Assembly: GCF_016313185.1 (NCBI RefSeq)
Contig: NZ_CP066218.1
Span: forward strand, 3,844,001 to 3,908,000
DNA from: Mycolicibacterium baixiangningiae
GTDB lineage: Bacteria > Actinomycetota > Actinomycetes > Mycobacteriales > Mycobacteriaceae
Direction of reading: 5' to 3'
DNA: 64,000 bases
Of this stretch, positions 1 through 16,293 are shown piece by piece. The translations under genes and the position numbers were made by a program. Every line of letters begins with the position of its first letter. The stretch's first letter is position 1. The notes below the pieces were generated by a model that worked only from the letters and a program-made list of their open reading frames with translations, was not told where the DNA came from and searched no databases.

Positions 1-2154
1 GTCGACGTGACGGTGTTCGACAGCCACCCGAGGCACGTCGGTCGAGAGGGGAAGATGATAGGCCGCGAACGTCGTCGACAGGGGTTGGCCGGCGTCGGAG
101 TACCGCCACTGCTCGAACAGCGCGCCGCCGAGCCCCTGCGCGACCCCACCGATGATCTGGCCTTCGACGATGCGGGGGTTGATTTCTCGACCGCCCTCGT
201 GGGACACCGCGTAGCGCAGCACCTTCACCAGGCCGGTGCGCCGGTGCACGCCGACGATCGCGGCGTGCACGCCCATCGTCCACGTCACGGTCTCCACCCG
301 GAACACGGCGGTGACGTCGAGGGCCTGCCCGCTCTCGGCGTCCCCGCCGACGGTTTGGGCGCGGGCGATCTCCAGCCAGCTCAGCGCGCGGGGCCCGGCG
401 CGGAACACGCCGTGCGCGTAGTCGATCGGGCCGTCCACGCCGAGCAGTCTCCGCACGTGTTCCACCGCGACCCCGACCAGTTTCCCGGCCGCCTCGTGCA
501 CCGCGGAGCCGGCCAGGATCGCCGAGCGGCTCGCGAACGTGCCCACCCCTTCGGGCAGCCGCTCGGTGTCCGACGGCACGTACCGTACGCACTCCATCGG
601 CACGCCCAGCGCCTCGGCCGCCACCTGCGCGAAAACGGTCTCGTGGCCCTGCCCTGCGGCGGCGGCGCCGGCGGTGACCTCGAATCCGCCGTCGGCGAGC
701 AGGCGGATGCGCGCGGTTTCATGCGGTCCGCGCCCGGTGGCCTCGAGGTACGAGGACAGCCCGTAACCGATGCGGTGGTCTGGATGTTCGGCGGCACACC
801 GATCAACCTCGTTGCGCGGCAGCAGATTCGACACCGACTCCAGGCAGGCGAGGTAGTCGCCGCCGTCGAAGGAGATAGGCACGCCGTCGCGGTACGGCAG
901 CGGACGGGAGTAGGGCAGGTCGGCGGCGGTGAGCAGATTGCGTCGCCGGATCTCCTCGGCGCTCAACCCGAGCCGGCGGGCGGCGGCGTCGAGGCTCCGT
1001 TCGAGGGCGAAGGTGGCCTCGGGTCGGCCCGCCCCGCGGTACTGCGCGGTGAGCGTCTTGTTGGTCAGCGCCGCCCGTCCCGTGATGTGGGCGGCGGGGA
1101 TCCGGTACGGGCCGAGCAGGTGGATCGCGGTGTTCGCCACGATTCCCGCCACCCATAGGCTGCCTGCGCCGATGTCGGCGACGAACGAGTCCTCCCACGC
1201 CAGGATGTGGCCGTCGGCGTCGAGTGCCATGCGGGTGTGGTGGATCTGGTCGCGCCCCTGGGCGCTGGCAACGAGGTGTTCCTGACGGTCTTCGACCCAG
1301 ATGACCGGGACGCCGGTGTGGCGGGCCAGCACAGCCAAGGCGATCTCTTCGGCGTAGACATTGGCCTTGGTGCCGAAACCGCCACCGACATCGGGTACCG
1401 CCACCGTGATGTCCTGCGGGGTCCAGCCCGTCACGGCGCAGATCGCGTCGCGCACGGTGTGGGGGATCTGGGTGGAGGTCAACAGCTCGACCCGCTGCCG
1501 CTGGGCGTCGAATGCCGCGCGCACCCCCCGGCCTTCGAGCGGGATCGCCCCGTGGCGGTTCATCCGGTAGGTGCCCTCGACGACGTGCTCGGCACCGGAG
1601 AAAGCCAGTTCGGGCGCACCGAATGAGAACTCCAGGCGGGCCGCCTCATTCGAGCCCAGATGTCCGAAGAGCACGGCGCTGTCGGGGCCCAGGGCGTACG
1701 CCGGATCGGTGACCACGGGCAGCGGGGTGTAGTCGATGTCGATCGCTTCCAGCGCGTCCTCGGCGCGGTAACGGTCCTCGGCGATCAGCACCGCGATCGG
1801 CTGGCCGATGTAGTGCACCGTGTCGGCGGCGAGCACCGGCAGGCGCTGGTCGGCCAAGAAGCAGTTCGTCGCCGCGGTGAAAGCGGGGTTGGGGGTGGTC
1901 AGGGCGGGGATCGCCACGCCTGTCAGCCCGAGGTCGGCCGCGGTGTAGACCCCGAGGACACCGGGCATCCGGGCCGCGGCGGCGGTGTCGATGTGGTTGA
2001 TGCGGGCGTGCGCCTCACTGGACCGCACGAAGACCGCGTGGTGGGCGCCCGCCGCGCGGTCGGCGAGAAACCGGCCGTGCCCCGCGAGCATCCGGTCGTC
2101 CTCGCGGCGCCGCACCGACGTGCCGATGTAGCTCAATGTAGCCGTTTCTCCCAC
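1..2154 (-). CDS. Xanthine dehydrogenase/CO-dehydrogenase-family molybdopterin-binding subunit (3' end off window)
   Basis: I read one uninterrupted minus-strand frame of about 718 codons that leaves the window at its left edge. The N-terminus resembles the family opening (YIGTSVRRREDDRMLAGHGR). The molybdopterin-binding motif GGGFGTK is near residue 258, QYRGAGRPEA near 372 and GQGHET near 500. The usual length is about 770-790, so only the C-terminal ~60 residues are missing; these should carry the catalytic Glu motif. QYRGAGR is the form II/aldehyde-oxidase type, unlike the AYRCSFR loop of true aerobic CO dehydrogenase (family knowledge), so CO is an unlikely substrate. The start is uncertain: GTG at 2154 or 2160, or TTG at 2136, all overlapping the permease stop at 2133-2135. 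That overlap implies translational coupling to the importer. FeS and FAD subunits may lie beyond the left edge. Confidence 0.88.
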   Translation of the reverse strand, partial: MGETATLSYIGTSVRRREDDRMLAGHGRFLADRAAGAHHAVFVRSSEAHARINHIDTAAAARMPGVLGVYTAADLGLTGVAIPALTTPNPAFTAATNCFLADQRLPVLAADTVHYIGQPIAVLIAEDRYRAEDALEAIDIDYTPLPVVTDPAYALGPDSAVLFGHLGSNEAARLEFSFGAPELAFSGAEHVVEGTYRMNRHGAIPLEGRGVRAAFDAQRQRVELLTSTQIPHTVRDAICAVTGWTPQDITVAVPDVGGGFGTKANVYAEEIALAVLARHTGVPVIWVEDRQEHLVASAQGRDQIHHTRMALDADGHILAWEDSFVADIGAGSLWVAGIVANTAIHLLGPYRIPAAHITGRAALTNKTLTAQYRGAGRPEATFALERSLDAAARRLGLSAEEIRRRNLLTAADLPYSRPLPYRDGVPISFDGGDYLACLESVSNLLPRNEVDRCAAEHPDHRIGYGLSSYLEATGRGPHETARIRLLADGGFEVTAGAAAAGQGHETVFAQVAAEALGVPMECVRYVPSDTERLPEGVGTFASRSAILAGSAVHEAAGKLVGVAVEHVRRLLGVDGPIDYAHGVFRAGPRALSWLEIARAQTVGGDAESGQALDVTAVFRVETVTWTMGVHAAIVGVHRRTGLVKVLRYAVSHEGGREINPRIVEGQIIGGVAQGLGGALFEQWRYSDAGQPLSTTFAAYHLPLSTDVPRVAVEHRHVD

Positions 2155-2912
2155 TGCCACAACGCCACCGAGATCGCGAACGAGATGGTGATCAGCAGCA
2201 TGATCGTCGCCACCATCGATGGATAGTCCCCGTGGCTGTAGGACTGCAGCACCACCCGGCCGAGCCCGCGGCGCGTGGCGAAGAACTCGGAGAGCACCAC
2301 ACCTACGACGGCCAGGCTGACGGCCAGCCGGATACCGGTGAGCAGCGGCCGCCGGATCGCCGGGAAGATGATGTGTACCAACGTCTGCCATGCGTTCGCC
2401 CGCACCGAGCGCGCCAATTTCCAGTACACCCGCGGGATCTCCTGCACACCGGTGGAGACGTTGATCAACACCGGGAAGAGCGCGAACAACACGCCCATCA
2501 CGACTTTCGATCCGCTCAGGCTGAAGATGGGCAGCAGCACCGGGTACAAGACGATCTTCGGAATGCCGTTGAGCATGATGATCAGCGGCTCGAGCAGCCG
2601 GCGCATCAACGATGACAGACCCAGCAACAGACCGATGCCGCCGCCGACGGCGGTGCCGATCACGAACGCCAGGAACACCGCCTGCGCGGTCACCCGCAGA
2701 TCGAACAGATAGCTGGGGTCCGACAGGTTCTCGACGAGCACCGTGAGGGTCTGCACCGGAGACGGGATGACGAAGGTGAGGCTGGACATGATCTCCCAGC
2801 CGATCGCCACCACGACGGCCAGCGCGACCGCGCCGACGAACTGATTGCCCAGCAGCGAGCGGGCCCGCCGGGACTTCGGTGCGGCCTCGCTGCGCGGCAG
2901 TGTGGCGGTCAT
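2133..2912 (-). CDS. ABC transporter permease, NitT/TauT (SsuC) type
   Basis: This 259-residue inner-membrane permease has about six hydrophobic segments and a BPD_transp_1 domain. An EAA-like loop (KLARSVRANAWQTLVHIIFP) near residues 165-185 should contact the ATPase. The ATG at 2912 overlaps the TGA of the preceding permease by four bases (ATGA), so I prefer it to the longer open frame upstream. It is the last importer gene before the molybdenum hydroxylase. With the neighbouring permease it probably forms a heterodimeric channel. The family imports sulfonates, nitrate, taurine, pyrimidine or thiamine precursors and similar small molecules; the substrate cannot be read from this sequence. 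Confidence 0.88.
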   Translation of the reverse strand: MTATLPRSEAAPKSRRARSLLGNQFVGAVALAVVVAIGWEIMSSLTFVIPSPVQTLTVLVENLSDPSYLFDLRVTAQAVFLAFVIGTAVGGGIGLLLGLSSLMRRLLEPLIIMLNGIPKIVLYPVLLPIFSLSGSKVVMGVLFALFPVLINVSTGVQEIPRVYWKLARSVRANAWQTLVHIIFPAIRRPLLTGIRLAVSLAVVGVVLSEFFATRRGLGRVVLQSYSHGDYPSMVATIMLLITISFAISVALWQWEKRLH

Positions 2913-3760
2913 GCCTTCCTCCCCCGCAGCAGGACCCGCTCGACGAGCGCGAGCAGCACTGTCAGGATCATCGACAGCGCCAGCACCACGGCGATGTAGG
3001 CGAACATCAGTGTGTTGTCGAAGATTTCGTACAGGTATCGGATGCGGTAGCCGAGCCCGGCCTGGGCGGTGGTGAACTCCATCGCGATCGTGCCGATCAG
3101 CGCGTACACCACGGCCAGGCGCAGCCCGGCGACGATGAACGGCCCGGCCGCCGGGACCGCGATGGCGAACAGGGTCTGGCGCGGGGAGGCATTGAGCGAT
3201 CGGGCCAGCTTCATGTACACCGGCGGCATCGTGTTCAGGCCGACGGCGGTGTTGAGCGCCATCGGGATGGCGGCCATGATGGTCGCCAGGATGATCACCG
3301 ACATCGCATTGATGCCGACGAGCACGATCATCACCGGATAGAACAGCACCATCGGCACCGCGTAGAACGACACCAGGTAGGGCTCGAACACCCGGCCCAC
3401 CAACGGCAGCTTCCAGAACGTCAGACCCGCGGCGAAGCCCAGCAGGCTGCCCGCCACGATCGAGACGGCGACCTCCATACCGGTGCGGCGGGCGTCCAAC
3501 CAGAACTGGGAATCGCCGAACAGCACGGGCAGTTCGCCGAAGATGGTCGACGGCGCAGGCAGCACCCGCTCGCTCCACCAACCCGCTGCCGCCCCGATCT
3601 CGGCGAACACGATGAACAGTGCGATCAGCGCAACGGTGGACAGGACGCTGACCAGCGCGTCGCCCATCTTCCGCGGACGGCGGGCGGGGCCGGGCCCGGT
3701 GGAATGTGGTGGCATGGTCTCGGTGGGCAGATCGTCTTCGGCCAGGGACGACGCCGTCAT
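2909..3760 (-). CDS. ABC transporter permease, NitT/TauT (SsuC) type
   Basis: This 283-residue permease has a hydrophilic N-terminal ~35 residues, then about six membrane segments. Its EAA-like loop (KLARSLNASPRQTLFAIAVP) is in the usual place, between residues 185 and 205. The ATG at 3760 overlaps the ATPase stop (ATGA), and its own stop overlaps the next permease start in the same way, so three importer genes are translationally coupled. It is clearly homologous to the neighbouring permease but diverged, consistent with a two-permease channel rather than a recent duplication. Confidence 0.88.
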   Translation of the reverse strand: MTASSLAEDDLPTETMPPHSTGPGPARRPRKMGDALVSVLSTVALIALFIVFAEIGAAAGWWSERVLPAPSTIFGELPVLFGDSQFWLDARRTGMEVAVSIVAGSLLGFAAGLTFWKLPLVGRVFEPYLVSFYAVPMVLFYPVMIVLVGINAMSVIILATIMAAIPMALNTAVGLNTMPPVYMKLARSLNASPRQTLFAIAVPAAGPFIVAGLRLAVVYALIGTIAMEFTTAQAGLGYRIRYLYEIFDNTLMFAYIAVVLALSMILTVLLALVERVLLRGRKA

Positions 3761-4563
3761 GTGGCCGCCGTCTCCTGCTGGCGGAACCCGCGCATCGACT
3801 CGGCCTGCAGCGAACCCCAGATGCGGTTGTGCAGTTCGTTGAAGCGGGGGGTCGACACCACGCCGGCGTCCCGTTCCGCCGGCAGGTCGATGTCGACGAC
3901 GTCGATGATCGAACCCGGCCGGTAGGACATCACCCAGACCTGCTGTGACAACAGGATCGCCTCGCTGATGTCGTGGGTGACGAAGACGATCGTCTGGTGC
4001 GTGCGAGCCCAGATCTGGCGGACCTCGGCGCCGAGGAAGAGCCGGGTCTGCTGGTCGAGTGCGGCGAACGGCTCATCCATCAGAACCACCTCCGGCTGGA
4101 CCGCCAGCGTGCGCGCGAGTGCGACGCGCTGCCGCATTCCGCCGGAAAGCTGTGAAGGATACGACTTCTCGAACCCACTGAGGCCGACCAGGTCGACGGC
4201 CTCCTTCGCGCGCTGGCGGCGTTCGGCCTTCGGGGTGCCGATCATCTCCATGGCGAAGCTGACATTGTCCTCGACGGTGCGCCACGGCAACGTCGAGTCC
4301 TCTTGGAAGACAACGCCGATTTTGGGGTCCGGTCCCGTCACCGTCTTGCCCGCCACACTGACATGGCCGGCGGTGGCCCGCTGCAGACCGGCGATGACGG
4401 CGAGCAGCGTGGACTTGCCACAACCGCTCGGCCCGACGATGGACACGAAGCTGCCGTGGGACACGTCCTGGTCGATGCCGGTGACGGCGGTGACCTCGCC
4501 CGCCGGGGAATCGAACACCACGGACACGCCTCGCATCTCGATGCCCTTGGAAGTCGCGTTCAC
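3757..4563 (-). CDS. ABC transporter ATP-binding protein, SsuB/TauB/NrtD type
   Basis: This 268-residue ATPase has every catalytic motif: Walker A GPSGCGKST near residues 42-50, Q-loop FQEDSTLPW near 85-93, signature LSGGMRQRVALA near 137-148, Walker B VVLMDEPFAALD near 158-169, and switch His in VTHD near 194-197. It should power import by the two permeases encoded just downstream. The start is a GTG at 4563 with a GGAG ribosome site a few bases upstream. It lies 38 bp after the substrate-binding protein gene. Confidence 0.92.
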   Translation of the reverse strand: MNATSKGIEMRGVSVVFDSPAGEVTAVTGIDQDVSHGSFVSIVGPSGCGKSTLLAVIAGLQRATAGHVSVAGKTVTGPDPKIGVVFQEDSTLPWRTVEDNVSFAMEMIGTPKAERRQRAKEAVDLVGLSGFEKSYPSQLSGGMRQRVALARTLAVQPEVVLMDEPFAALDQQTRLFLGAEVRQIWARTHQTIVFVTHDISEAILLSQQVWVMSYRPGSIIDVVDIDLPAERDAGVVSTPRFNELHNRIWGSLQAESMRGFRQQETAAT

Positions 4564-4601
4564 GAGTCTCCGATCGTGGTCAGGTGCGGTGACGGTCTTG
4601 G

Positions 4602-5585
4602 TCAGAATTCTGTGCGGGCATCCTCGGGCAGGTACTGCTGATCGAGCACCGTCGCCCAGTCGACGGGCTCGGAGATCTGTCCGGCGGCGACCATGAGATC
4701 GGACAGGTTCTTCAGCCCCGCCGGATCGACGGTGAGCGAGTAGCCCTTCTCGATGTCGGGGGTGTTGCGCAGCGCATCGGTCATCACCTGCGGGCTCACC
4801 CCGACCAGGGGGCCGAGTTCGGCGCCGGCCTCATCGGGGTTCTCGACCACCCACTTGTTGAGGCGGTCGGCGACGCGGAAGAAGGCCGTGAGGTTCTCTC
4901 CGTTGGCCTCGGCGTAGTCGCCGTTGACGGCCACCAGGTCGGCGGGCATGTCGCCGATGACGTCCCGCGACTTCACCAGGACCTCGGCGTTGTCGGTGGC
5001 CTGCTTGTCGGCGATGAACGGCTGCATGGCCCACCCGGCGGTGATCTGGCCGGCCTTGGCGGCGGTCCAGTTGTCGCCCATCGGGCCGACGGCCTGGGCC
5101 TTGACGCCGAGCTTCTTTTCAAGGGCCTTGACCACGAGCTCCGTGGACGAGCCCGCCGAGCTGAAGCCGAGCGTGGCGCCCTCGATCGTGCGTCCGGGCG
5201 GCGAGATCCACGAGAAGTCGTTGACCTGGAACCACGGCGCGACGACTTTCAGGTTCGAATCCGCCTGCTTGGCGGCCAGCAGCACCGAGGTGTTGCCGGC
5301 GATTGCCATGTCAGCGTCACCGCTGGTGACGACGCGCATCGTGTTGCCGCCACCACCGCCGGAGTAGAGGTCGACCTTGAGGCCCTCCTCCTCGAACCAG
5401 CCCTTGTCGATGCCGGCCTGCAGAATGGCCATGAACGGCAGGCTGTCGACGCCCGTCGCCGAGATACTCAACTCGTCGGTGCCCTGGGCGGCGGGTTCGG
5501 CGGATTCATCGGCGCACGCGGTGGCTCCCAGAAGGAGCGCGCCGGCGGCGAGGAGGGCGGGAAGAGCTTTGGGGGACCAGATCAT
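4602..5585 (-). CDS. ABC transporter substrate-binding lipoprotein, NMT1/THI5-SsuA type
   Basis: This is a 327-residue secreted binding protein. A signal segment ends in a lipobox-like GATAC, so Cys near position 25 is probably lipidated. The mature part has the NMT1/SsuA-like look (SISATGVDSLPFMAILQAG, GDADMAIAGNTS). I place the start at ATG 5585 because GGAGGT lies six bases upstream; a TTG at 5591 is the in-frame alternative. It heads the importer operon and follows a copy of the operator-like 17-mer at 5610-5626. The ligand is unknown. Family members bind aliphatic sulfonates, taurine, pyrimidine precursors or aromatic compounds. Confidence 0.87.
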   Translation of the reverse strand: MIWSPKALPALLAAGALLLGATACADESAEPAAQGTDELSISATGVDSLPFMAILQAGIDKGWFEEEGLKVDLYSGGGGGNTMRVVTSGDADMAIAGNTSVLLAAKQADSNLKVVAPWFQVNDFSWISPPGRTIEGATLGFSSAGSSTELVVKALEKKLGVKAQAVGPMGDNWTAAKAGQITAGWAMQPFIADKQATDNAEVLVKSRDVIGDMPADLVAVNGDYAEANGENLTAFFRVADRLNKWVVENPDEAGAELGPLVGVSPQVMTDALRNTPDIEKGYSLTVDPAGLKNLSDLMVAAGQISEPVDWATVLDQQYLPEDARTEF

Positions 5586-5609
5586 CGACAACCTCCGGTA
5601 AACTGAATA

Positions 5610-5626
5610 TTGGATACAGCATACGA
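5610..5626. promoter_or_regulatory. Operator-like 17-mer, copy 1 (importer promoter)
   Basis: TTGGATACAGCATACGA lies 25 bp upstream of the binding-protein ATG. The left half TTGGATAC is shared exactly with the copy at 8851-8867 and differs by one base from the copy at 6953-6969; the right half is a degenerate inverted copy. I infer a site for the GntR regulator encoded at 8098-8829. Confidence 0.6.
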
Positions 5627-5642
5627 TCAGGTGTGATCTAGG

Positions 5643-5939
5643 TCAACATTTCACGCCTGGGGACCGGCGTGCCAACACACCGGCGAGTTCGAGTCCTGCG
5701 GCGATCCCGACCATGGCGGCCGCCGCTGTCCACCGGGGCGCAACCGAACGCCCCGATCCGTCACGCGAATCTTCTTGCGGGCGCACCGCAGAAGCCGTCC
5801 CGCCGCTCGGTGACGCGCCCTCCGGGATGATCGCCGCACCGTCAGCCGGCGTCAGCGCGCGCTTCAACGGCGGCGGAGCGCCCGGCACCGGACTGCCCGG
5901 CGCCGGGTGATGCGCGTCCGCGTCGCCGGACTGTGTCAC
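5643..5939 (-). CDS. Small Pro/Ala-rich protein with C-terminal membrane helix
   Basis: This 98-residue frame starts with a GTG whose last two bases form the start of the monooxygenase TGA (GTGA overlap), the coupling style used throughout the cluster. Residues 1-70 are low-complexity and Pro/Gly/Ala-rich. Residues about 70-88 are a hydrophobic stretch (WTAAAAMVGIAAGLELAGVL) followed by Arg-Arg, so it resembles a tail-anchored protein. I recognise no family. The CoxG-like protein encoded across the divergent gap ends with a similar hydrophobic tail. It could be a real accessory anchor, or merely open frame in GC-rich DNA. Confidence 0.45.
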   Translation of the reverse strand: MTQSGDADAHHPAPGSPVPGAPPPLKRALTPADGAAIIPEGASPSGGTASAVRPQEDSRDGSGRSVAPRWTAAAAMVGIAAGLELAGVLARRSPGVKC

Positions 5940-6934
5940 CGCCCCGATCCGTCCACGATCTCGGCGAAGGTGCGGATGGTCGGCGCACGACTCTGTCCGG
6001 GCCGGACGAACGGCACGATCGACACCTGGTCAACCCCGAGCGACTCGATCTCCTTGAGCCGCTGGGCACACTCGGCGGGGGTGCCCGCCAGCGCGAACAG
6101 GTCGACCAGTTCGTCGGGCACCAGATCGGCGTGCGACGCCTCGGTGTTCATGTGCTCGTAGTAGTTGTAGCTCTCGCGGATGCGGTCGATCGCCTTCTCC
6201 AACGTGGGCTCCACCTTGGCCGGCAGCGGCCTGATCGCGACCCGGGAGACGTGCGCGCGGACCAGATCCCGCGCCTCGGAGCGATCCTCGCTGATCGCCG
6301 TGGGTGTCCAGAGCACGATGTGCAGGTCGTCAAGCGTGCGCCCGCTCTCCGCCGCACCGGCTTCGATCGTCTTGAGCGCCGCCTCGATGAAATGCGGTGC
6401 GGTGCCCACCAAGACGATGACACCGTCGGCGATGCGGCCGGATATGCGCAGGATCTTGGGCGCCGACGCCGCGATGTAGACCGGGATGTCCAGCGGCTCG
6501 GACAGATAGTTGAGATGGAAGTCGGCCCCGCTGGTCGCCTCCACCACCTTCTCGCCGCGGAACAGCGCGCGCAGCTGGCGGATCGACTCCTCCAACTCGG
6601 CGAGCTTCTGCGGTTTGAGGCCCATGGTGCGCAGCGACGAGTCGCCCGTGCCGATGCCCAGCGCCACCCGGCCGCCGGTGAACTCGGCCAACGTCGCCCA
6701 CGTCGAGGCCAGCAGCGACGGATGACGGGTGACGGCATTGGTGACGCCGGTCCCGAACACGATGCGCTCGGTGCCCACGGCGGCCGCACCCATCACCGTC
6801 GAGGACTCACGCCAGATGTTCTGCGAGTCGCCGAACCACACGTTGTCGTAGCCGAGCGATTCGCACAGCTGCACGTATTCGCACATGGCCCCGACGGGTT
6901 CGGTGGGGAAGAGACCGACTCCCTTGCTCAACAC
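5936..6934 (-). CDS. Luciferase-family (LLM) flavin/F420-dependent oxidoreductase, Mer-like
   Basis: This 332-residue TIM-barrel protein belongs to the bacterial luciferase-like superfamily. GIGTGDSSLRTMGLKP near residues 92-107 and the N-terminal GVGLFPTEP resemble methylene-tetrahydromethanopterin-reductase-like, F420-using members common in actinobacteria, but the cofactor (F420 or FMN) is not proven by sequence. The start is GTG 6934, with AGGAGG eight bases upstream at 6943-6948; that ribosome site overlaps the palindromic operator-like element. Beside a molybdenum hydroxylase and a RidA-like protein, a ring- or side-chain-oxidising step is plausible. Confidence 0.85.
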   Translation of the reverse strand: MLSKGVGLFPTEPVGAMCEYVQLCESLGYDNVWFGDSQNIWRESSTVMGAAAVGTERIVFGTGVTNAVTRHPSLLASTWATLAEFTGGRVALGIGTGDSSLRTMGLKPQKLAELEESIRQLRALFRGEKVVEATSGADFHLNYLSEPLDIPVYIAASAPKILRISGRIADGVIVLVGTAPHFIEAALKTIEAGAAESGRTLDDLHIVLWTPTAISEDRSEARDLVRAHVSRVAIRPLPAKVEPTLEKAIDRIRESYNYYEHMNTEASHADLVPDELVDLFALAGTPAECAQRLKEIESLGVDQVSIVPFVRPGQSRAPTIRTFAEIVDGSGR

Positions 6935-6946
6935 CTGCTCGACCTC

Positions 6947-6975
6947 CTACGGTTGGATATCGTATCCAATCGTAG
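6947..6975. promoter_or_regulatory. Operator-like palindrome, copy 2 (divergent monooxygenase/coxG gap)
   Basis: A near-perfect 29-bp palindrome with arms CTACGGTTGGATAT and GTATCCAATCGTAG around a central C at 6961. Only two mirrored position pairs are mismatched. Its 17-bp core at 6953-6969 aligns with the sites at 5610 and 8851. It sits between two divergent genes and overlaps the monooxygenase Shine-Dalgarno sequence, so a bound repressor could block both directions. Confidence 0.7.
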
Positions 6976-7034
6976 GGTGGCTCCCCCGGACCCACAACCG
7001 GAACGGGCGAACTCGTTCAGAAGAGGAGATGCAG

Positions 7035-7637
7035 ATGCGACTCGTCAACGAGTTCTCGGTGGACGCCCCACTCGACGCGGCCTGGGCGACGCTGACCGAC
7101 ATCCCCAAGGTGGTCGAATGCATCCCCGGCGCCGGACTCGACCGCCGCGACGGTGACGACTACCACGCCAGCGTCGCGGTGAAAGTGGGTCCGGTGGGGA
7201 TGACGCTGGCCGGCACGGCCACCGTGGTCAGCCGACGCGACGACACCCACGAGATGGTGGTGCGTGGGCACGCCCGCGACCGCAAGGGCAACGGCTCGGC
7301 AGAGGCGACGGTGACGATGAGCGCTCGCGAGTCGGCCGCCGCCGGCCATTCCGATGTCACGGTGGTCACCGACCTCGAATTGGGCGGGCGCATAGCGCAA
7401 TTCGGCAGCGGCGTCATCTCGCAGGTGAGCAACCGGATCCTCGCGCAGTTCGTCAAACGGTTGAACGCGCTCATCACCGGGGGCGCCGATGAGAAGGACG
7501 TGGCCGCGTCCGCGTCCGAACCCGCACCCACGGACTGGCGGCCGGCAACCTCGGATACCGCGTCGCTGCTGGCGACGATGCTCGCCGGGGTGCTGCTCGG
7601 GCTGGCGATCGGGCGGACGGCACACCGGCTTCGATGA
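7035..7637 (+). CDS. CoxG-like SRPBCC protein with C-terminal membrane anchor
   Basis: This protein has about 200 residues. Residues 1-150 match the CoxG/SRPBCC fold (MRLVNEFSVDAPLDAAWATL; IPGAGL). A polar linker follows, then a hydrophobic helix near residues 178-195. In CO-oxidising bacteria CoxG helps attach the molybdenum hydroxylase to the membrane (family knowledge); the same job for the hydroxylase encoded here is inferred. I choose ATG 7035 because GAGGAG lies six bases upstream; ATG 7029 directly abuts that site. It is divergent from the monooxygenase and convergent with the RidA-like gene, only two bases separating their ends. Confidence 0.85.
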   Translation: MRLVNEFSVDAPLDAAWATLTDIPKVVECIPGAGLDRRDGDDYHASVAVKVGPVGMTLAGTATVVSRRDDTHEMVVRGHARDRKGNGSAEATVTMSARESAAAGHSDVTVVTDLELGGRIAQFGSGVISQVSNRILAQFVKRLNALITGGADEKDVAASASEPAPTDWRPATSDTASLLATMLAGVLLGLAIGRTAHRLR

Positions 7638-7639
7638 CC

Positions 7640-8101
7640 TCAGCGGTCGACCGCGGCGACCAGTTCGAGTTCGACGCAGGCGCCGCCCGGCAGGGACGCC
7701 ACGCCGATCGCCGTGCGGGCATGCGCACCGCAGTCGGCCCCGAACACCTCGAGCATGAGTTGCGACGCCCCGTCGATCACCGAAGGGTGAGCATCGAATT
7801 CGGTTGTCCCGCGGACATATCCACGTAGATGGACCAGGCCGCGCACCGCGTCGAGCCCGGCTGCCGCCTCGACGGCTCCGAGGAGGTTCAGCGCCGCCAG
7901 GCGGGCCTGCTCGACAGCCTGGCCGACCGTCACGTCGGCGCCGACGACCCCGCGCAGGCTCGGCGCACCGGGCCGCCGCGCGGTGGCACCGGAGATCCAC
8001 AGCTGATCGCCACACCACCGCGACGGGATGTAAGCCCCTTTGGGCGGTGGCGGTGCCGGCAGCTGTAACCCCAACGCCGTCAGCCGTTCTCGCGGTGTCA
8101 C
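7640..8101 (-). CDS. RidA/YjgF-YER057c-UK114 family protein
   Basis: This 153-residue RidA-like protein contains the characteristic block ARTAIGVASLPGGACVELEL near the C-terminus, keeping the Arg and Glu that enamine/imine deaminases of the family use. Catalysis is therefore possible but unproven. The GTG at 8101 overlaps the regulator stop (GTGA), so the two are coupled and probably co-transcribed from the promoter before the regulator. In pyrimidine and aromatic-amine catabolism RidA-type enzymes act beside flavin oxygenases on reactive intermediates. That precedent suggests a nitrogen-containing substrate for this cluster (inference). Confidence 0.8.
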   Translation of the reverse strand: MTPRERLTALGLQLPAPPPPKGAYIPSRWCGDQLWISGATARRPGAPSLRGVVGADVTVGQAVEQARLAALNLLGAVEAAAGLDAVRGLVHLRGYVRGTTEFDAHPSVIDGASQLMLEVFGADCGAHARTAIGVASLPGGACVELELVAAVDR

Positions 8102-8829
8102 AACTGCCGGTCGGCTTCCTCCCGGGCGAACACCTGGTGCAGGTGGTCGACCGCGTGCGAGCGGTGCAGGTGGTTGATCGCCACGGCCTGCTCGACGTCG
8201 CGGGCGACCATAGCCTCGACGAAGAGCACGTGCTCGCTGTTGACCTTCTCCAGATCCATCAGGTGCGCGTAGAGCGGACGGTATGCGTCGGCGGTGTTCC
8301 ACAGCTGGGTCACCAGCCGTCTGGTGCGGGCCATCCGACTCGCCTCGAACGGCAGGAAGTGGAAGCGGCGGTTGGCCACCCCGACCGCGATGAGGTCACC
8401 CGCAGTGGCGGCCCGGTCCATCTCGGCCATCTCGGCGCGCATCGCGTCGACCACGTCGTCGGTCAGCTGTGGCATCGCGTCGCGGATGAGCTCCTCTTCG
8501 AGGATGTCGCGCAGCCGGAAGACCTCGAGTAAGTCCTCCAAACCGAGCTTGGCCACCCGGTACCCGCTGTGCGGGACGTAGGTGATGTACTCCTCGGCCT
8601 CCAGCGTCTTGAGCGCCTCACGGACCGGGATGCGGGACATGCCGAACTGTTCGGCCAGGGTCTCCTGCACGATCCAGCTGCCGGGCGCGAGCTTGCCGGT
8701 GGTGATGTCGCGGCGCAGCGCCTCGGCCACCGCCTGCTGCGCGGTCTTCGGCCGCACGAAGTCCGCGCGCGGTGCCGCACCCGCGTCGGGGCCGACGGGC
8801 GTGCGCTTGGTCGCGGTGCGCGGAGGCAT
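8098..8829 (-). CDS. GntR family transcriptional regulator, FCD (FadR/VanR) subfamily
   Basis: This 243-residue regulator has a winged helix-turn-helix at residues 28-93 (LAEQFGMSRIPVREALKTLE is the recognition region) and an all-helical FCD ligand domain from about 98 to 225 with several His residues that could bind metal. It is the only regulator gene in the cluster. A copy of the operator-like 17-mer lies 21 bp upstream of its start, suggesting autoregulation. FCD regulators usually bind a pathway substrate or intermediate and release DNA. Confidence 0.9.
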   Translation of the reverse strand: MPPRTATKRTPVGPDAGAAPRADFVRPKTAQQAVAEALRRDITTGKLAPGSWIVQETLAEQFGMSRIPVREALKTLEAEEYITYVPHSGYRVAKLGLEDLLEVFRLRDILEEELIRDAMPQLTDDVVDAMRAEMAEMDRAATAGDLIAVGVANRRFHFLPFEASRMARTRRLVTQLWNTADAYRPLYAHLMDLEKVNSEHVLFVEAMVARDVEQAVAINHLHRSHAVDHLHQVFAREEADRQL

Positions 8830-8850
8830 GAGGGCTCCCTTTCGCCGATA

Positions 8851-8867
8851 TTGGATACTCTATGCGA
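8851..8867. promoter_or_regulatory. Operator-like 17-mer, copy 3 (regulator promoter)
   Basis: TTGGATACTCTATGCGA lies 21 bp upstream of the GntR gene. It shares ATATTGGATAC with the importer copy and the TTGGATAY half-site with the central palindrome. Position is consistent with autoregulation of the GntR-ridA unit. Confidence 0.6.
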
Positions 8868-8899
8868 CCGTTCCACGACGTGGCCAGTTTCGGCGCGCC

Positions 8900-9673
8900 T
8901 CACACCAGGTCGATGGCTTCGGCGATGGACGGCAGCACGCGGCTGGGCCGGAACGGGTACCTCTCGACGTCCTCGATGGACGTCGACCCGGTCAGCACGA
9001 GGATCGTCTCCAGCCCGGCCTCGATACCTGCGACGACGTCGGTGTCCATCCGGTCACCCACCATCACGGTGCTCTCGGAGTGCGCCTCGATGCGGTTGAG
9101 CGCGCTGCGGAACATCATCGGATTCGGTTTTCCCACGAAGTACGGCTCCCGCCCGGTGGCCTTGGTGATCATGGCGGCCACCGATCCGGTCGCCGGCAGC
9201 GGTCCCTCCGCGGAGGGACCGGTCACGTCCGGGTTGGTGGCGATGAACCGGGCACCCCTGAGAATGAGCCGGACCGCCTTGGTGATGGCCTCGAAGGAGT
9301 AGGTGCGCGTCTCGCCCAGCACCACGAAGTCCGGTCCGACGTCGGTCAGCGTGTACCCGGCCTCGTGCAGTGCGGTGGTCAGCCCGGCCTCCCCGATGAC
9401 GTAGGCCGACCCGCCCGGCAGCTGATCGGCGAGGAAGGTCGCGGTCGCCAACGCCGAGGTCCAGATCGCCTCCTCCGGCACGATCAGCCCGGAGCGCGCC
9501 AGGCGGGCGGCCAGATCGCGAGGGGTGAAGATCGAATTGTTGGTCAGGACCAGGAACGGCCGCTCCCGTTCGACGAGTCGGGCGAGGAACTCCGCTGCCC
9601 CGGGCAGCGCATGCTCTTCGCGGACGAGGACACCGTCCATGTCGGTGAGCCAGCATTCGGCATTCGCGCGCAC
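8900..9673 (-). CDS. HAD-IIA family sugar-phosphatase-like hydrolase (NagD type)
   Basis: This 257-residue HAD phosphatase has motif I DMDGVL at residues 11-16, motif II LTNNS near 44-48, and the C-terminal VGKPNPMMF and VGDRMDTDV motifs with the metal-binding Asp residues. It resembles NagD/AraL phosphatases acting on sugar phosphates or nucleoside monophosphates. The start is a GTG at 9673. It lies 70 bp beyond the GntR gene, on the same strand and upstream of it; no operator copy precedes it, so it need not belong to the catabolic cluster. Confidence 0.86.
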   Translation of the reverse strand: MRANAECWLTDMDGVLVREEHALPGAAEFLARLVERERPFLVLTNNSIFTPRDLAARLARSGLIVPEEAIWTSALATATFLADQLPGGSAYVIGEAGLTTALHEAGYTLTDVGPDFVVLGETRTYSFEAITKAVRLILRGARFIATNPDVTGPSAEGPLPATGSVAAMITKATGREPYFVGKPNPMMFRSALNRIEAHSESTVMVGDRMDTDVVAGIEAGLETILVLTGSTSIEDVERYPFRPSRVLPSIAEAIDLV

Positions 9674-9806
9674 CGGTTCAGTCTGTCACTGTGCCGCAGG
9701 TGTACCGGTTGAATCATGACCACGAGCCGGCCGCGGATAAGGTCGGCGGGGTGAATGTCCCGCCCGATCTGGATCGCCGACACCCTGGCCGAACTGCGGT
9801 GAGGGC

Positions 9807-10112
9807 CTACTCGGGCAGCCGCAGCTCCGGCTTCTCGACCTCTTCGATGTTGACGTCTTTGAAGGTGATCACCCGAACCTGTTTGACGAACCGGGCGGGC
9901 CGGTACATGTCCCACACCCACGCGTCGGCCAGCCGCAACTCGAAGTACACCTCGCCGTTGGCGTTGCGTGGCACCATCTCGACACTGTTGGCCAGGTAGA
10001 AGCGGCGCTCGGTCTCCACCACGTAGCTGAACTGCCCGACGATGTCCTTGTACTCCCGGTACAGCGACAGCTCCATCTCGGTTTCGTACTTCTCGAGATC
10101 CTCGGCGCTCAT
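9807..10112 (-). CDS. DUF2469 family protein (Rv2901c-like)
   Basis: This conserved 101-residue actinobacterial protein of unknown function opens MSAEDLEKYETEMELSLYRE and is strongly acidic at both ends. It is the leftmost gene of the segment syntenic with M. tuberculosis, downstream of rnhB as expected for Rv2901c. No catalytic motif or membrane segment is visible. Confidence 0.9.
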   Translation of the reverse strand: MSAEDLEKYETEMELSLYREYKDIVGQFSYVVETERRFYLANSVEMVPRNANGEVYFELRLADAWVWDMYRPARFVKQVRVITFKDVNIEEVEKPELRLPE

Positions 10113-10156
10113 CAGTGCTGCTGTCCTTCACGTCGGTATGGCACGGCCGGCGGTCC

Positions 10157-10177
10157 CTCGCGCAACCGGCTCATCGC
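10157..10177. repeat. Dispersed repeat, copy A (rnhB-DUF2469 gap)
   Basis: CTCGCGCAACCGGCTCATCG plus one base resembles the copies at 10925-10944 and 36613-36633 (core TCGCGCAAGCGGCTCATSGC; one internal change here). It fills much of the short gap between rnhB and the DUF2469 gene. Confidence 0.6.
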
Positions 10178-10186
10178 AATCCTCCC

Positions 10187-10912
10187 CTACCCGAGTTCAT
10201 AGCACTGCCCGGGTTCATCGTCGGTCAGCACACCGGCAACCTGAGGTGTACCCGCAGGAACCAGCCGGCGCACGTTGATGAACGAATAGCGGTGCTGGCT
10301 GGACGGCCCGAGCGCGGCGAGCGCGGCGGTGTGCGCCGGGGTGCTGTAGCCCTTGTGCTCGGCGAAACCGTACCCGGGATGCTCGCGTTCCATCGCCACC
10401 ATCAACCGGTCGCGGCTCACCTTGGCCAGCACGCTGGCCGCCGCGATGCAGGCTGCGGCCGCGTCGCCGCCGACCACCGGGAGTGACGGCGTCGGCAGCC
10501 CAGGCACCCGGAATCCGTCGGACAGCACGTAACCCGGCCGCAGCGGAAGACCCGCCACCGCCCGCCGCATTCCCTCGATGTTGGCGATGTGCACACCGCG
10601 CCTGTCGACTTCCTCCGAGGGGATGAACACCACGTGGTAGGCCAGCGCGTAGCGGCGGATCAGCGGGAACAGCCGTTCGCGCTCCTTCTCGCCCAGCTTC
10701 TTCGAATCGTCGAGCGCGGCGAGGCTTTCCAACCGGTTCGGACCCAGAACGCACGCCGCGACCACGAGCGGGCCGGCGCACGCGCCGCGGCCCACCTCGT
10801 CGACGCCGGCCACCGGGCCGAGCCCGTTGCGGTACAGCGCGGACTCCAGGGTGCGTAGACCGGATGCCTTGCGGATCACCGTGCGGGGCGGCCATGACGC
10901 CGGCAAGCTCAA
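10187..10912 (-). CDS. rnhB: Ribonuclease HII
   Basis: This 241-residue RNase HII cleaves the RNA strand of RNA-DNA hybrids and single misincorporated ribonucleotides. The acidic catalytic residues appear in [12 protein letters not shown] (near residues 37-48), LSDGF and SRDRLM. The N-terminus [20 protein letters not shown] matches mycobacterial orthologues. The start is TTG 10912, or TTG 10906 two codons later. It sits between lepB and DUF2469 as in M. tuberculosis. Short gaps on both sides carry a copy of the same dispersed repeat. Confidence 0.93.
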
Positions 10913-10924
10913 GCTCCCGGCTCG

Positions 10925-10944
10925 TCGCGCAAGCGGCTCATGGC
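10925..10944. repeat. Dispersed repeat, copy B (lepB-rnhB gap)
   Basis: TCGCGCAAGCGGCTCATGGC lies in the 55-bp gap between the lepB stop and the rnhB start. It matches the mutM-internal copy at 36613-36633 except near the right end. Confidence 0.62.
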
Positions 10945-10967
10945 GGATCTCCCACTGCGGGTTCGTC

Positions 10968-11807
10968 CTACTGGTTCGCGTCAGCGGTCTGCGGGTTCAC
11001 CGAGCCCACCCCGCCCCATCGGGACGGCGGCCAGGCGATGAACCGCGCCTTACCGATCACATTGTCCACCGGAATGGTGCCCGCTTCAGGGTCACCCGTG
11101 CACAGCAGACCGCGCTGCGCGTCGCCGGGCAGGTTGGTGCAGTGTGCGCGCGAATCGGCCGAATGGGTGCGATTGTCCCCCATCACCCACAGCTTGTCCT
11201 CGGGGACGGTGACCGGCCCGAACTCGTTGCCCAGACAGGGGTAGACGGCGGGGTCGGCCATCATCGTCTCGGGGTCCAGGTACGGCTCTTCGAGCCGTTT
11301 ACCGTCGACTGTCAGCCCGGTGGCCGCGCGGCATTCGACGGTCTGGCCGCCCACGGCGATCACCCGTTTGACCAGGTCGTTCTCATCCGGCGGGACGAAG
11401 CCGACCACCGACAGCGCGTTCTGCACGACGCGCAGCGCGGGGTTGTCCGACCGGATCGACTTGTAGCCGATGTTCCAGTTGGGCGGTCCCTTGAACACGA
11501 TCACGTCGCCGGGCTCCGGTTCGGTGAACCGGTAGGTCACCTTGTCAACCATGATGCGGTCGCCGACACAGCCCGGGCACCCGTGCAACGTGGGTTCCAT
11601 CGACTCCGAGGGAATCAGGTACGGCCGTGCGACGAACGTCAGCATCACGTAGTACAGGACGATCGCGATGGTGACCAGGATCGCCAGCTCCCGCAACGCG
11701 GAATGTTTGCGTTCGGGGGTGTCGTCCCGATCGTCGGCGTCCGGGTCGGCACCCGATTCGACCCTGCCGACGGTGTCCTCGGGCGACGACTCGGCGCTAT
11801 CGGTCAC
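10968..11807 (-). CDS. lepB: Signal peptidase I
   Basis: This 279-residue type I signal peptidase has an acidic cytoplasmic N-terminus (residues 1-38), one membrane helix at about 39-60, and an extracytoplasmic catalytic domain. The nucleophile Ser69 lies in [10 protein letters not shown], the general-base Lys147 in [11 protein letters not shown], and [12 protein letters not shown] is the conserved box near the C-terminus. It removes signal peptides from exported proteins at the outer face of the membrane. The GTG start at 11807 gives the family length. It lies between rnhB and rplS. Confidence 0.95.
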
Positions 11808-11859
11808 GGCTTCAGACTAGCCAGCGAACCGACCGACGCCTCGTCAGCGCCGACGCGGG

Positions 11860-12201
11860 TCAGCGCTTCTCCTTGATCTTCGCCTTCTTGCCGCGAAGCT
11901 CACGCAGGTAGTACAGCTTCGCGCGGCGGACGTCACCGCGGGTGACGACATCGATGTGGTCGATGTTGGGCGAATGCACGGGGAACGTGCGCTCCACACC
12001 GACGCCGTAGCTCTCCTTGCGAACCGTGAAGGTCTCGCGGATGCCCCCACCCTGCCGGCGCAGGATGACACCCTTGAAGACCTGGATGCGCTCTTTGGAG
12101 CCCTCGATGACCTTCACGTGCACATTGACGGTGTCTCCGGGGCCGAAAGCCGGGATGTCGTCGCGCAGCGACGCCTGATCGACGAAGTCCAGCGTGTTCA
12201 T
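11860..12201 (-). CDS. rplS: 50S ribosomal protein L19
   Basis: This is a complete 113-residue L19 starting [17 protein letters not shown] and containing the family signature [20 protein letters not shown] and the basic C-terminus [14 protein letters not shown]19 lies at the 30S-50S interface. ATG 12201 is the start, although the frame stays open upstream. Transcription probably starts near 12337 from the promoter-like element at 12344-12378, leaving a leader of about 136 nt. Confidence 0.97.
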
Positions 12202-12522
12202 CGGTGACACTTCCTTGTTGCTTGCGGCGTGGGCACGCTGTCCAGAACAGCACGTGCCGAGCCGGTGGGTACGGACGCTATCGGGGCGTATGTCGCAGCG
12301 GACCGCAGGGAGGTACCCCACGTCCAGCGCGGACAACTGCTCAATTGTGCCAGACGGGCACCGGTCCAGTGAAATCGCCGCTTCGGCGCACTCATTTCGT
12401 GACCCGTGCTGATCAGCGGCCGCACGGGGTACACGTTAGGCTGAAAACACCGATTCGCCCCGCACAGGTGCGCCGGATCGGTTCCCGCCATAGGCGCCCA
12501 CCAGCATCCGAGAAGGAGATCT
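12202..12522. other. 321-bp divergent intergenic region, rplS/lppW
   Basis: The longest gap in the window. I see no credible gene in it. It holds the rplS promoter-like element (12344-12378) and a small hairpin CGCCG-CTT-CGGCG at 12376-12388 that overlaps the upstream part of this element. The plus-strand promoter of lppW must also lie here; I could not assign it confidently. Confidence 0.7.
12344..12378 (-). promoter_or_regulatory. Putative rplS promoter (GCGATTTC-N15-GTCTGGCACAAT)
   Basis: Read on the minus strand, GCGATTTC is followed after 15 bases by GTCTGGCACAAT. The same two blocks at the same spacing lie upstream of rpsP. CACAAT is a plausible -10 hexamer, and TTCACT ends 18 bases before it. 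The element lies about 140 bp before the rplS ATG. Confidence 0.6.
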
Positions 12523-13449
12523 ATGCCACGGCCGTCGGTGCTGTGGACGGCCACCGCAGCGACGGTGGTCGCCGCAGTTGTCGTCTCGGGATGCGAGGCG
12601 CGTGTGCACGGCACGCCGCCGCCTCCCGACGGCCCGCATCTGACTGTCGTCGCACCTCAGGGCTCGATGGCCCCGCTCCCCGAAGCTCCGCCCGACCAGC
12701 CCGCCGCGGCGTTCGCCGGGCTCGACGACCGGGCCCGTCTGGCAAGCGACCAGGCAGCCGAAGCGGGTGCCGACATCACCGTGCTGGTCAAGGATCGCAA
12801 CACCGGCCAACTGGTCTCCAACGGCAACGGCCGCGGCATCGCCATCGCATCGGTGGTCAAGCTGTTCATCGCCGACGACCTGCTGTTCAGCGGCAAACCG
12901 CTGTCCCCGGAGGACCGTAAGTCGTTCGAGTCGATGCTGCGGTCCTCTGACGACAGCGCGGCCGAGGTCTTCTGGAACCGGGGCGGCGGCAGCGCCATCG
13001 TCACGCGCGTCGCGAAACGCTACGGCCTGGGCGACACCCGTCCTCCCGGCAACGGCCGGTGGTGGAACACCATCAGCACGGCCGACGACCTGGTGCGGTA
13101 CTACGACATGCTGCTGTCGGGTACCGGGGGCCTGCCGCAGGACAAGGCCGAGATGATCGTCAGCAATCTCGCCGCATCGACGCCCAACGGGATCGACGGC
13201 ACCCAGCCCGGTGGGGTGTACCCGCAACGCTTCGGCATCCCCGAGGGGTTGTACGCGATGCCGGTGGCGGTCAAACAGGGCTGGATGTGTTGCGTCAGCT
13301 CCGACTGGATGCACCTGTCGACGGGCATCATCGGCGCCGACCGCCGCTACATCATGGTGATCGGATCCGATCAACCGGCCGGCGCCGCCGAAGCCCGCGC
13401 CACCATCACCCAGGCGGTCAAGACGATGTTCCCGGACGGCCGGATCTAG
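12523..13449 (+). CDS. lppW: Lipoprotein LppW, beta-lactamase-like fold
   Basis: This 308-residue lipoprotein has a short signal ending in the lipobox VVSGC, with lipidated Cys near residue 24, then a Pro-rich linker and a domain like class A beta-lactamases/serine hydrolases. An SxxK-like IASVVKLFI near residue 110, a [11 protein letters not shown] block in the usual SDN position, and VKQGW where KTG would be suggest a degenerate penicillin-recognising fold. Enzymatic activity is uncertain. It lies between rplS and trmD as Rv2905 does. Its TAG stop shares the palindrome CTAG with the convergent trmD stop. Confidence 0.88.
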
Positions 13450-14129
13450 CTGTCGGTCAACAGGTCCGGGCGCCGCTCCCGGGTTCGCGTGAGCGCCTGT
13501 TCGTGCCGCCACGCCGCGACCTTGGCGTGGTCGCCGGACAACAGCACCCCGGGCACGTCCAGTCCGCGCCACGTCGGCGGTCGCGTGTAACTCGGTCCCT
13601 CGAGCAGACCGGCGGAGTGTGAGTCATCGGCGTGGGATTCGGGGTTGCCCAGCACGTCGGGCAGCAACCGCACGACCGCCTCGACCATCACCAGCGTCGC
13701 CGACTCCCCTCCGGTGAGCACATAATCGCCGATCGAGACTTCCGCCACCCGCATCCGCCGCGCGGCATCGTCGACGACGCGCTGATCGATGCCCTCATAG
13801 CGGCCGCAGGCGAACACGAGGTGCCGTTCGGCACTCCACTGGCGGGCGGTCGCCTGGTCGAACAGCCGCCCCGCGGGGGTCGGTACCACCAGCAGCGTGT
13901 CCTCGGTGCAGAGGTCGTCGAGCGCCGCGCCCCACACGGGCGCCTTCATCACCATGCCGGGCCCGCCGCCGTAGGGCGCATCGTCGACCGAACGGTGCAC
14001 ATCGTGGGTCCACCCGCGCAGGTCGTGTACCCCCAGCTCGACGCGCCCGGACTCGATTGCCTTGCCCGGCAACGACTCTCGTAATGGATCGAGGTAGCGC
14101 GGGAAGATGGTGACGACATCAATTCGCAC
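13446..14129 (-). CDS. trmD: tRNA (guanine-N1)-methyltransferase
   Basis: This 227-residue TrmD makes m1G37 in tRNAs to prevent +1 frameshifting. The trefoil-knot SAM-binding motifs are clear: [11 protein letters not shown] near residues 53-63, [11 protein letters not shown] near 109-119 and [11 protein letters not shown] near 132-142. It is the last gene of the rpsP-khpA-rimM-trmD operon, 14 bp after rimM. GTG 14129 is the start. Confidence 0.96.
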
Positions 14130-14143
14130 AGCTGCCCACCCTG

Positions 14144-14665: not shown

Positions 14666-14681
14666 GAACGCCGTTCGTTCG

Positions 14682-14924: not shown

Positions 14925-14932
14925 GTCCGGGC

Positions 14933-15469: not shown

Positions 15470-15592
15470 GGTGAAGCGTTCTCCTATGAGTTGCCACGCC
15501 GCAATTCAGCGATGCGGGCGGAATTGCCCGATCCGGTTTTGCCTCGCGTGTGTGACCACCCCACGGCCGGAGTCGCGGGCGGACAGCCGACC

Positions 15593-15627: not shown

Positions 15628-15648
15628 TCGACGCGGCACACTCGAGAC

Positions 15649-16290: not shown

Positions 16291-16293
16291 CGA

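Follow-up and report, generated by a model that had tools for sequence, protein, structure and literature searches.

What would a mycobacterium do with an importer, a molybdenum hydroxylase, a luciferase-family protein, CoxG, RidA and a GntR/FCD regulator, all encoded side by side? The question is raised by a gene cluster of Mycolicibacterium baixiangningiae at the left edge of a stretch of 64,000 nucleotides (the window; positions 3844001–3908000 of a one-contig, 6.18-Mb genome). An earlier sequence-only reading took these genes to suggest uptake and oxidation of a nitrogen-containing small molecule. A single pathway for an N-heterocycle still stands, but it would not be simply oxidative, as the luciferase-like protein (LLM) is probably a reductase dependent on coenzyme F420 (F420). 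We consider it rather probable that the cluster serves to take up a pyridine-2-carboxylate, picolinate being the likeliest, and to break it down reductively to 2-oxoadipate. The computed evidence consists of gene families, their conservation, a repeated palindrome, F420 genes and alternative 2-oxoadipate genes in relatives; judged from sequence, the cluster is real, conserved and coherent, and is found in many soil actinobacteria.

In the route that we infer, with all its reactions, its substrate and its pairing of regulator and operator, the ATP-binding cassette (ABC) importer would take up picolinate and a three-subunit molybdenum (Mo) hydroxylase would oxygenate C6 to give 6-hydroxypicolinate, electrons passing to menaquinone with the help of CoxG. 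The LLM would use F420H2 to reduce the ring to 6-oxo-1,4,5,6-tetrahydropicolinate, whose ring amide would be hydrolysed by an enamidase homologue to the enamine/imine of 2-oxoadipate. RidA proteins hydrolyse enamine/imine intermediates, an activity that fits the expected enamidase product; here RidA would accelerate imine hydrolysis, with release of ammonia. A fused 2-oxoacid dehydrogenase E1, sharing E2 and E3 components from elsewhere, would convert 2-oxoadipate to glutaryl-coenzyme A (glutaryl-CoA), from which glutaryl-CoA dehydrogenase would form crotonyl-CoA. The GntR/FCD protein would control the transcription units via a single palindrome.

Pfam searches found every family named in the sequence-only reading where that reading had placed it. 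The genes and operator candidates within the window, in window coordinates, are:

8098..8829, minus strand: GntR/FCD transcriptional regulator (Pfam FCD 3.1e-21, GntR 4.5e-16)
7640..8101, minus strand: RidA/YjgF-family protein (Pfam PF14588, PF01042), for which imine/enamine hydrolysis is proposed
7029..7637, plus strand: CoxG-family protein (Pfam COXG 4.4e-15), with a hydrophobic C-terminal tail by eye
5936..6934, minus strand: Mer-like luciferase-family protein, the LLM (Pfam Bac_luciferase), proposed F420H2-dependent ring reductase
4602..5591, minus strand: ABC importer binding protein, NMT1/SsuA-like (Pfam NMT1 2.6e-22)
3757..4563, minus strand: ABC importer ATPase (Pfam ABC_tran 2.2e-33)
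2909..3760, minus strand: ABC importer permease A (Pfam BPD_transp_1)
2133..2912, minus strand: ABC importer permease B (Pfam BPD_transp_1), start codon as chosen by the analyst
1..2226, minus strand: Mo-hydroxylase large (molybdopterin) subunit (Pfam MoCoBD_1/2), start approximate; L005:9830-12226 in the stretch that extends to the left
6953..6969, no strand: palindromic operator candidate TTGGATATCGTATCCAA in the divergent LLM/CoxG promoter, 0 mismatches
8851..8867, no strand: second copy of the operator candidate, in front of GntR-RidA, with 2 mismatches
5610..5626, no strand: third, weaker copy in front of the gene for the binding protein, with 3 mismatches here and 2 in several relatives

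The cluster spans about 18 kb, and the window holds only its right-hand half. The gene for the Mo-hydroxylase large subunit extends 171 bases beyond the left window edge, and the part beyond was read in stretch L005 (genome 3834001–3853500). The flavin adenine dinucleotide (FAD) and iron–sulfur (FeS) subunits, which the sequence-only reading had expected further left, were both found there, making the cluster 9.3 kb longer, with its left end at genome position 3834709. Leftwards from the Mo subunit, Pfam and NCBIfam matches name the FAD subunit, the FeS subunit (with eight cysteines), a FUSC/YccS-like membrane protein, an amidohydrolase (the enamidase homologue), an acyl-CoA (glutaryl-CoA) dehydrogenase, the fused E1, a class III CoA-transferase and a TesB-type thioesterase. 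CoxG is the sole plus-strand gene. With start codons chosen by the analyst for all lengths, the coupled stop/start overlaps of the earlier reading recur as 4-nt overlaps at GntR-RidA, ATPase-permease A and permease A-permease B, and further 4-nt overlaps join Mo-FAD and FeS-FUSC; FAD-FeS overlap by 8 nt. In all, 12 of the 15 junctions are overlaps of 4–31 nt or gaps of less than 40 nt, the remaining three being the two gaps that flank the LLM gene and a 94-nt overlap between permease B and the Mo subunit, whose start is not fixed.

The enamidase homologue gave the first lead to the chemistry. It matches the enamidase of Eubacterium barkeri (PDB 2vun) at 279 bits, the next PDB match reaching 29 bits, and the alignment (query residues 9–391 against 4–383 of 2vun) amounts to full-length homology. 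The HxH motif, two later His and an Asp, which we take to be the metal ligands of enamidase, are kept in this alignment. Residue stretches flanking these ligands are unlike those of 2vun, so the substrate may differ as well. Among 7991 candidates scored, 1906 proteins match the enamidase at E ≤ 1e-20, and the relatives listed are the best 120 of these 1906. Distribution is patchy: of the family's 251 genomes only 3 have a match at E ≤ 1e-40, namely this genome and two at only 34–39% identity, and at class level, with E ≤ 1e-50, 8 of 394 genomes do (this genome, two at 81–83% and five at 38–39%, the last five probably another subfamily). Distant homologues at 33–39% identity (L048, L049) were set aside for their other neighbourhoods. 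One of them, at 33% identity, stands beside Rieske-dioxygenase- and ferredoxin-like frames named by eye (L049:7447-10693), a different aromatic/heterocycle route.

The relatives of the cluster were collected by a single scan of genome contigs with a 22-sequence enamidase alignment, which gave 38 loci, 37 of them actinobacterial by record title. By tblastn, the LLM is present in 31 of the 38 at 69–95% identity, the Mo subunit (at least 45% identity) and the binding protein each in 30, CoxG in 27, E1 in 21, glutaryl-CoA dehydrogenase in 19, and CaiB and TesB in 11 each. Among the seven loci with no LLM match, the genome of L027 carries an LLM beside RidA, and the stretches of L011, L025 and L044 end too early. 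Mycobacterial RidA falls outside the 10-kb flank and was therefore searched for separately, with 21 handles that represent 20 distinct genomes (the rows of G256 and G624 are identical). In all 20 distinct mycobacterial genomes an orthologue 66–82% identical to the cluster RidA is adjoined by GntR and CoxG, and tblastn places RidA in 7 of the 16 non-mycobacterial loci. The recurrence of the same set in other genomes argues that it is more than chance; the sequence-only reading had staked its single pathway on such co-occurrence, which the 38 loci and the 20 mycobacterial genomes bear out. Two records stood apart. In the genome of L020, Mycolicibacterium porcinum (L077), the cluster RidA gene carries one in-frame TGA, with GntR, CoxG and LLM matches adjoining. 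L044, titled a Klebsiella pneumoniae metagenome-assembled genome, has an enamidase 57% identical and an F420 CofD above cut-off, which is odd for Klebsiella; the record is probably mislabelled or mixed.

What the loci do with the product of the enamidase homologue bears most directly on the substrate. One of three exit modules is present in 28 of the 38 loci: E1 in 21, HglS (DUF1338) in four, and a thiamine pyrophosphate (TPP) enzyme of the acetolactate-synthase/2-oxoacid-decarboxylase class with an aldehyde dehydrogenase in three. HglS or the TPP enzyme with aldehyde dehydrogenase thus takes the place of E1 in relatives, and all three modules fit disposal of 2-oxoadipate. HglS turned over 2-oxoadipate alone among seven 2-oxoacids, via a substrate Arg (PMC7286885). 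All four HglS proteins near the enamidase (L027, L034, L036, L039) score above the curated cut-off (NF050083, 697–719 against 600 bits), and the one of L036, the only copy so compared, retains ERHGAIR, including the metal His and substrate Arg, as in Pseudomonas putida HglS (6w1g). In L034, by the gene caller, HglS starts 63 nt past the enamidase stop and shares its last 4 nt with a D-2-hydroxyglutarate dehydrogenase YdiJ-like gene (482 bits, cut-off 1350). HglS occurs in 11 of 33 genomes searched, in 13 copies, of which four lie within the enamidase locus; five genomes having another exit module (L010, L013, L016, L042, L045) also carry it elsewhere, and this genome has no match. Of the loci with the TPP enzyme and aldehyde dehydrogenase (L037, L040, L042; TPP matches all below cut-off), L037 and L040 add a CoA-transferase and L037 a glutaryl-CoA dehydrogenase. 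In M. baixiangningiae, the glutaryl-CoA dehydrogenase matches 3sf6 at 723 bits, 3swo at 596 and human 1siq at 385, entry names being those of the depositors. Since these exit genes imply 2-oxoadipate, the ring carboxylate would be adjacent to the nitrogen, as in picolinate and not in nicotinate, and from gene content the substrate is probably a pyridine-2-carboxylate. The purines, pyrimidines and nicotinates that the sequence-only reading had named for testing gave way at this point: the enamidase, glutaryl-CoA dehydrogenase, E1 and the relatives' HglS point elsewhere.

The same chemistry could act on another 2-carboxypyridine or cyclic imine, such as picolinamide, 6-hydroxypicolinate, a lysine-derived piperideine-carboxylate or quinolinate, in which case 2-oxoadipate would arise by loss of CO2 from the product. 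Routes from lysine to 2-oxoadipate are not known to need a Mo-hydroxylase or enamidase, the importer suggests an external compound, and the two closest solved Mo-hydroxylases, 7dqx and 1t3q, presumably act on pyridine and quinoline rings; we therefore think such a substrate unlikely, while noting that 2-oxoadipate is also a lysine intermediate (PMC7286885). In two loci from different genera the enamidase has an isochorismatase-like protein nearby (L041:9292-9987 and L040:15964-16686, the latter matching amidases only weakly); the two proteins are related and could release an acid from an amide. L040 itself (5240-16686, Nocardioides daejeonensis) is a variant with enamidase, RidA, TPP enzyme, aldehyde dehydrogenase and CoA-transferase, no close LLM, a different, 4-hydroxybenzoyl-CoA-reductase/xanthine dehydrogenase-like Mo-hydroxylase and a different importer, possibly serving another substrate or using another reductase.

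Nicotinate was the first idea, from the enamidase match, and was demoted once HglS, the TPP enzyme and E1 appeared in enamidase loci. An aerobic route would run through 6-hydroxynicotinate made by the Mo-hydroxylase, reduction by the LLM and enamidase action to 2-formylglutarate and then glutaryl-CoA, for which glutaryl-CoA dehydrogenase would still fit, and enamidase is described as hydrolysing 6-oxo-1,4,5,6-tetrahydronicotinate (PMC7356986). That route leaves no work for HglS, specific for 2-oxoadipate, nor for E1 or the TPP enzyme, and the Mo subunit matches nicotinate dehydrogenase (3hrd) only distantly, at 114 bits; we judge it improbable.

Ring reduction is the step that a picolinate pathway would give to the LLM. 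By hand, the stoichiometry from picolinate to 2-oxoadipate comes out as a single hydroxylation, a single two-electron reduction of the ring and two hydrolysis steps. Besides the Mo-hydroxylase, the LLM is the only core oxidoreductase, and ring reduction is assigned to it because no other core enzyme is left for that step. Among solved relatives, its sequence matches Mer at up to 141 bits, other F420 enzymes at 42–62 and the flavin mononucleotide (FMN) monooxygenase 7bip at 32. A Foldseek search with its AlphaFold model (mean predicted local distance difference test score, pLDDT, 90.5) put Mer at ranks 1–8, FGD1/Adf at 9–12 and the first flavin monooxygenase at 13. A profile search was concordant, with an alignment that included one 28%-identical F420-dependent glucose-6-phosphate dehydrogenase (FGD)-like protein, which raised FGD scores. 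Glu6, which we take to be the catalytic residue of Mer (entry 8qq8 being the E6Q mutant), is replaced by Gly in the cluster's LLM family, so the LLM is not Mer itself, a methylene-tetrahydromethanopterin reductase. The sequence-only reading was right to call the protein Mer-like; the monooxygenase of its title did not hold, as sequence scores and model both suggest that it is probably an F420 reductase. An FMN monooxygenase in an oxidative pathway is what the Bac_luciferase domain, the many FMN monooxygenases from Foldseek rank 13 onwards and the known cleavage of pyridine rings by luciferase-family monooxygenases might lead one to expect, and we hold it very improbable, both for the scores and ranks above and since HglS and E1 imply saturated 2-oxoadipate, which an extra oxygenation would not yield. 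There is precedent for the reduction in Rhodococcus, Nocardia and Nocardioides, whose LLHT-family enzymes use F420H2 to reduce the ring of picrate (PMC8498797). M. baixiangningiae has both CofD and FGD, the latter at 709 bits against a cut-off of 420; the genome's 38 matches to the FGD model, one of them above cut-off, make up a large set of luciferase-like proteins.

The Mo subunit was called a CoxL-family hydroxylase in the sequence-only reading, which is correct for the superfamily and not for carbon monoxide (CO) dehydrogenase (CODH) proper. Its nearest solved structures are 6-hydroxypseudooxynicotine dehydrogenase (7dqx, 455 bits) and quinoline 2-oxidoreductase (1t3q, 360 bits), followed by the putative oxidoreductase 4zoh (328 bits) and CoxL (322 bits). 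Its active-site motif is AQYRGAGR and not AYxCSFR, which we take to be the motif of form I CoxL, the aerobic CO dehydrogenase; CODH was rejected on this motif and on curated models that fall short of their cut-offs (TIGR02416, 365 against 991 bits; NF040766, 602 against 950 bits). CoxG is proposed to supply quinone (menaquinone) to the Mo-hydroxylase. It has also been tied to Mo-hydroxylase maturation (PMC4240915). A CODH-type enzyme, or unrelated genes forming no single pathway, as CoxG, similarity to the CoxL superfamily and a CODH model as the top NCBIfam match of the Mo subunit might suggest, has next to no probability in view of the missing motif, the low model scores and the conserved neighbourhood and palindrome.

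The palindrome, TTGGATA-N3-TATCCAA, lies in the divergent LLM/CoxG promoter with 0 mismatches here and in 15 relatives and with 1–2 mismatches in three more; it precedes the LLM in 19 of 19 loci of the first set whose LLM promoter lay within the stretch. Allowing 2 mismatches, 18 of the 20 RidA-centred mycobacterial stretches, one per distinct genome, have it before LLM/CoxG and 18 have it before GntR; L075, with no match before LLM/CoxG, is a stretch that lacks the LLM. Several relatives have extra copies ahead of the gene for the binding protein and some 40 nt ahead of that for the enamidase; in this genome the former is weak (3 mismatches) and the latter degenerate. With 2 mismatches allowed, most non-mycobacterial loci showed no palindrome. 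In the whole M. baixiangningiae genome there is a single full palindrome at up to 1 mismatch (0 for a reversed-pattern control). When 3 mismatches are allowed, the window has 3 matches where 0.13 would be expected, a count of 3 being reached by 1 of 100 shuffles. A candidate for the common signal on which the sequence-only reading had made its single pathway depend is thus seen, by sequence, before LLM/CoxG and GntR-RidA and more weakly before the binding protein. A single regulon across the units of the cluster is likely on this pattern, with the GntR/FCD protein as putative partner of the palindrome.

A number of observations weigh against a picolinate pathway. The sole characterised enamidase works on a nicotinate-derived ring, and the sequence and fold of the binding protein, whose model resembles thiamin-, taurine- and pyridoxal phosphate-binding folds, give only the broad NMT1/SsuA/Thi5 class and no ligand. 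The glutaryl-CoA dehydrogenase, E1 and CoA-transferase miss their NCBIfam cut-offs (the first scoring 213 against 470 bits with the equivalog model NF045552, Des type), and the CoA-transferase resembles 2-methylfumaryl-CoA isomerase. The cluster lacks E2 and E3 genes; five proteins with an E2 catalytic domain are encoded elsewhere in the genome, one as a 1290-residue frame, and E3 was not searched for there. Ten of the 38 loci have no 2-oxoadipate exit gene, four of which (L014, L031, L033, L044) end early, and a predicted HglS elsewhere was found in only two (L029, L041) of nine such genomes (L028, L029, L031, L032, L033, L038, L041, L043, L044, with L014 left out). The LLM is missing within the stretches of L040, L046 and L047, and RidA was not found by tblastn in 9 of 16 non-mycobacterial stretches, one of which, L044, ends early. 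At up to 2 mismatches, the palindrome is missing ahead of the L076 LLM and ahead of GntR of both L068 and L074. CofD scores above cut-off in 22 of 22 genomes, which does no more than permit F420 use, as F420 is widespread in these taxa.

To the right of the cluster lie a HAD-family hydrolase (Pfam) and then RNase HII-like and LepB-like frames, and to the left YifB-, DprA- and XerC-like frames, the frames named by eye. Because the left end likewise continues into YraN/YifB-like genes, by eye, in five loci (L011, L012, L015, L022, L023), some relatives appear to share the chromosomal site and others not. A small frame of 98 amino acids with a hydrophobic C-terminal stretch (window 5643-5939, minus strand) lies between the LLM and binding-protein genes; skipped here by the gene caller, it was found by tblastn in 19 of 38 loci, there too between LLM and binding-protein genes and mostly at 43–62% identity.

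Known systems share parts of the proposed pathway. Nicotinate fermentation in E. barkeri employs a Mo-hydroxylase, a 6-hydroxynicotinate reductase and an enamidase. The cluster would follow the same order of hydroxylation, ring reduction and enamide hydrolysis, with a homologous enamidase; it differs in belonging to aerobic actinobacteria, in its proposed F420 reductase, in a predicted product of 2-oxoadipate rather than 2-formylglutarate and in a Mo-hydroxylase only distantly related to nicotinate dehydrogenase. The pic cluster of Alcaligenes faecalis JQ135 and Bordetella shares the first step, a dehydrogenase forming 6-hydroxypicolinate, and from there stays oxidative, leading by way of 3,6-dihydroxypicolinate and 2,5-dihydroxypyridine to fumarate (PMC10142695), whereas our cluster is predicted to be reductive. 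None of the PicB monooxygenase, PicC decarboxylase and PicD dioxygenase families is among its annotated genes, no genome-wide search having been made. LLHT picrate transferases likewise pair a luciferase-like protein with F420H2 to reduce an electron-poor aromatic ring (PMC8498797), in nitroaromatics rather than the hydroxypyridine proposed here. The riboflavin/lumichrome lum operon of Nocardioides also brings a xanthine-oxidase-type hydroxylase, a TPP enzyme and hydrolases to an N-heterocycle, but its TPP enzyme decarboxylates the ring itself, with Rieske and catechol dioxygenases next (PMC12746152). HglS-based lysine catabolism shares the conversion of 2-oxoadipate to D-2-hydroxyglutarate, its HglS gene lying inside four relatives of the cluster, and differs in that lysine supplies the 2-oxoadipate.

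The picolinate gene set in print is, as far as its source describes it, oxidative and from a Gram-negative strain, and Gram-positive degraders include Arthrobacter, Streptomyces and Rhodococcus (PMC10142695). A reductive or F420-dependent picolinate pathway was not found among the titles and abstract openings listed from the open-access literature, which does not prove its absence from print. We put forward only tentatively, at a little short of an even chance, an aerobic reductive picolinate pathway that is genetically undescribed, in which an F420H2-dependent luciferase-like protein would dearomatise 6-hydroxypicolinate, an enamidase would open the ring to the imine of 2-oxoadipate, and three non-homologous exit modules for the latter (E1 with glutaryl-CoA dehydrogenase; HglS with D-2-hydroxyglutarate dehydrogenase; TPP decarboxylase with aldehyde dehydrogenase, with or without CoA-transferase) would have been swapped in evolution. 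If this is true, a conserved 'enamidase', an NMT1-type importer, a CoxL-like enzyme, CoxG and RidA would all have their substrates assigned, and F420 would gain a defined role in how soil mycobacteria and their relatives ordinarily obtain carbon and nitrogen.

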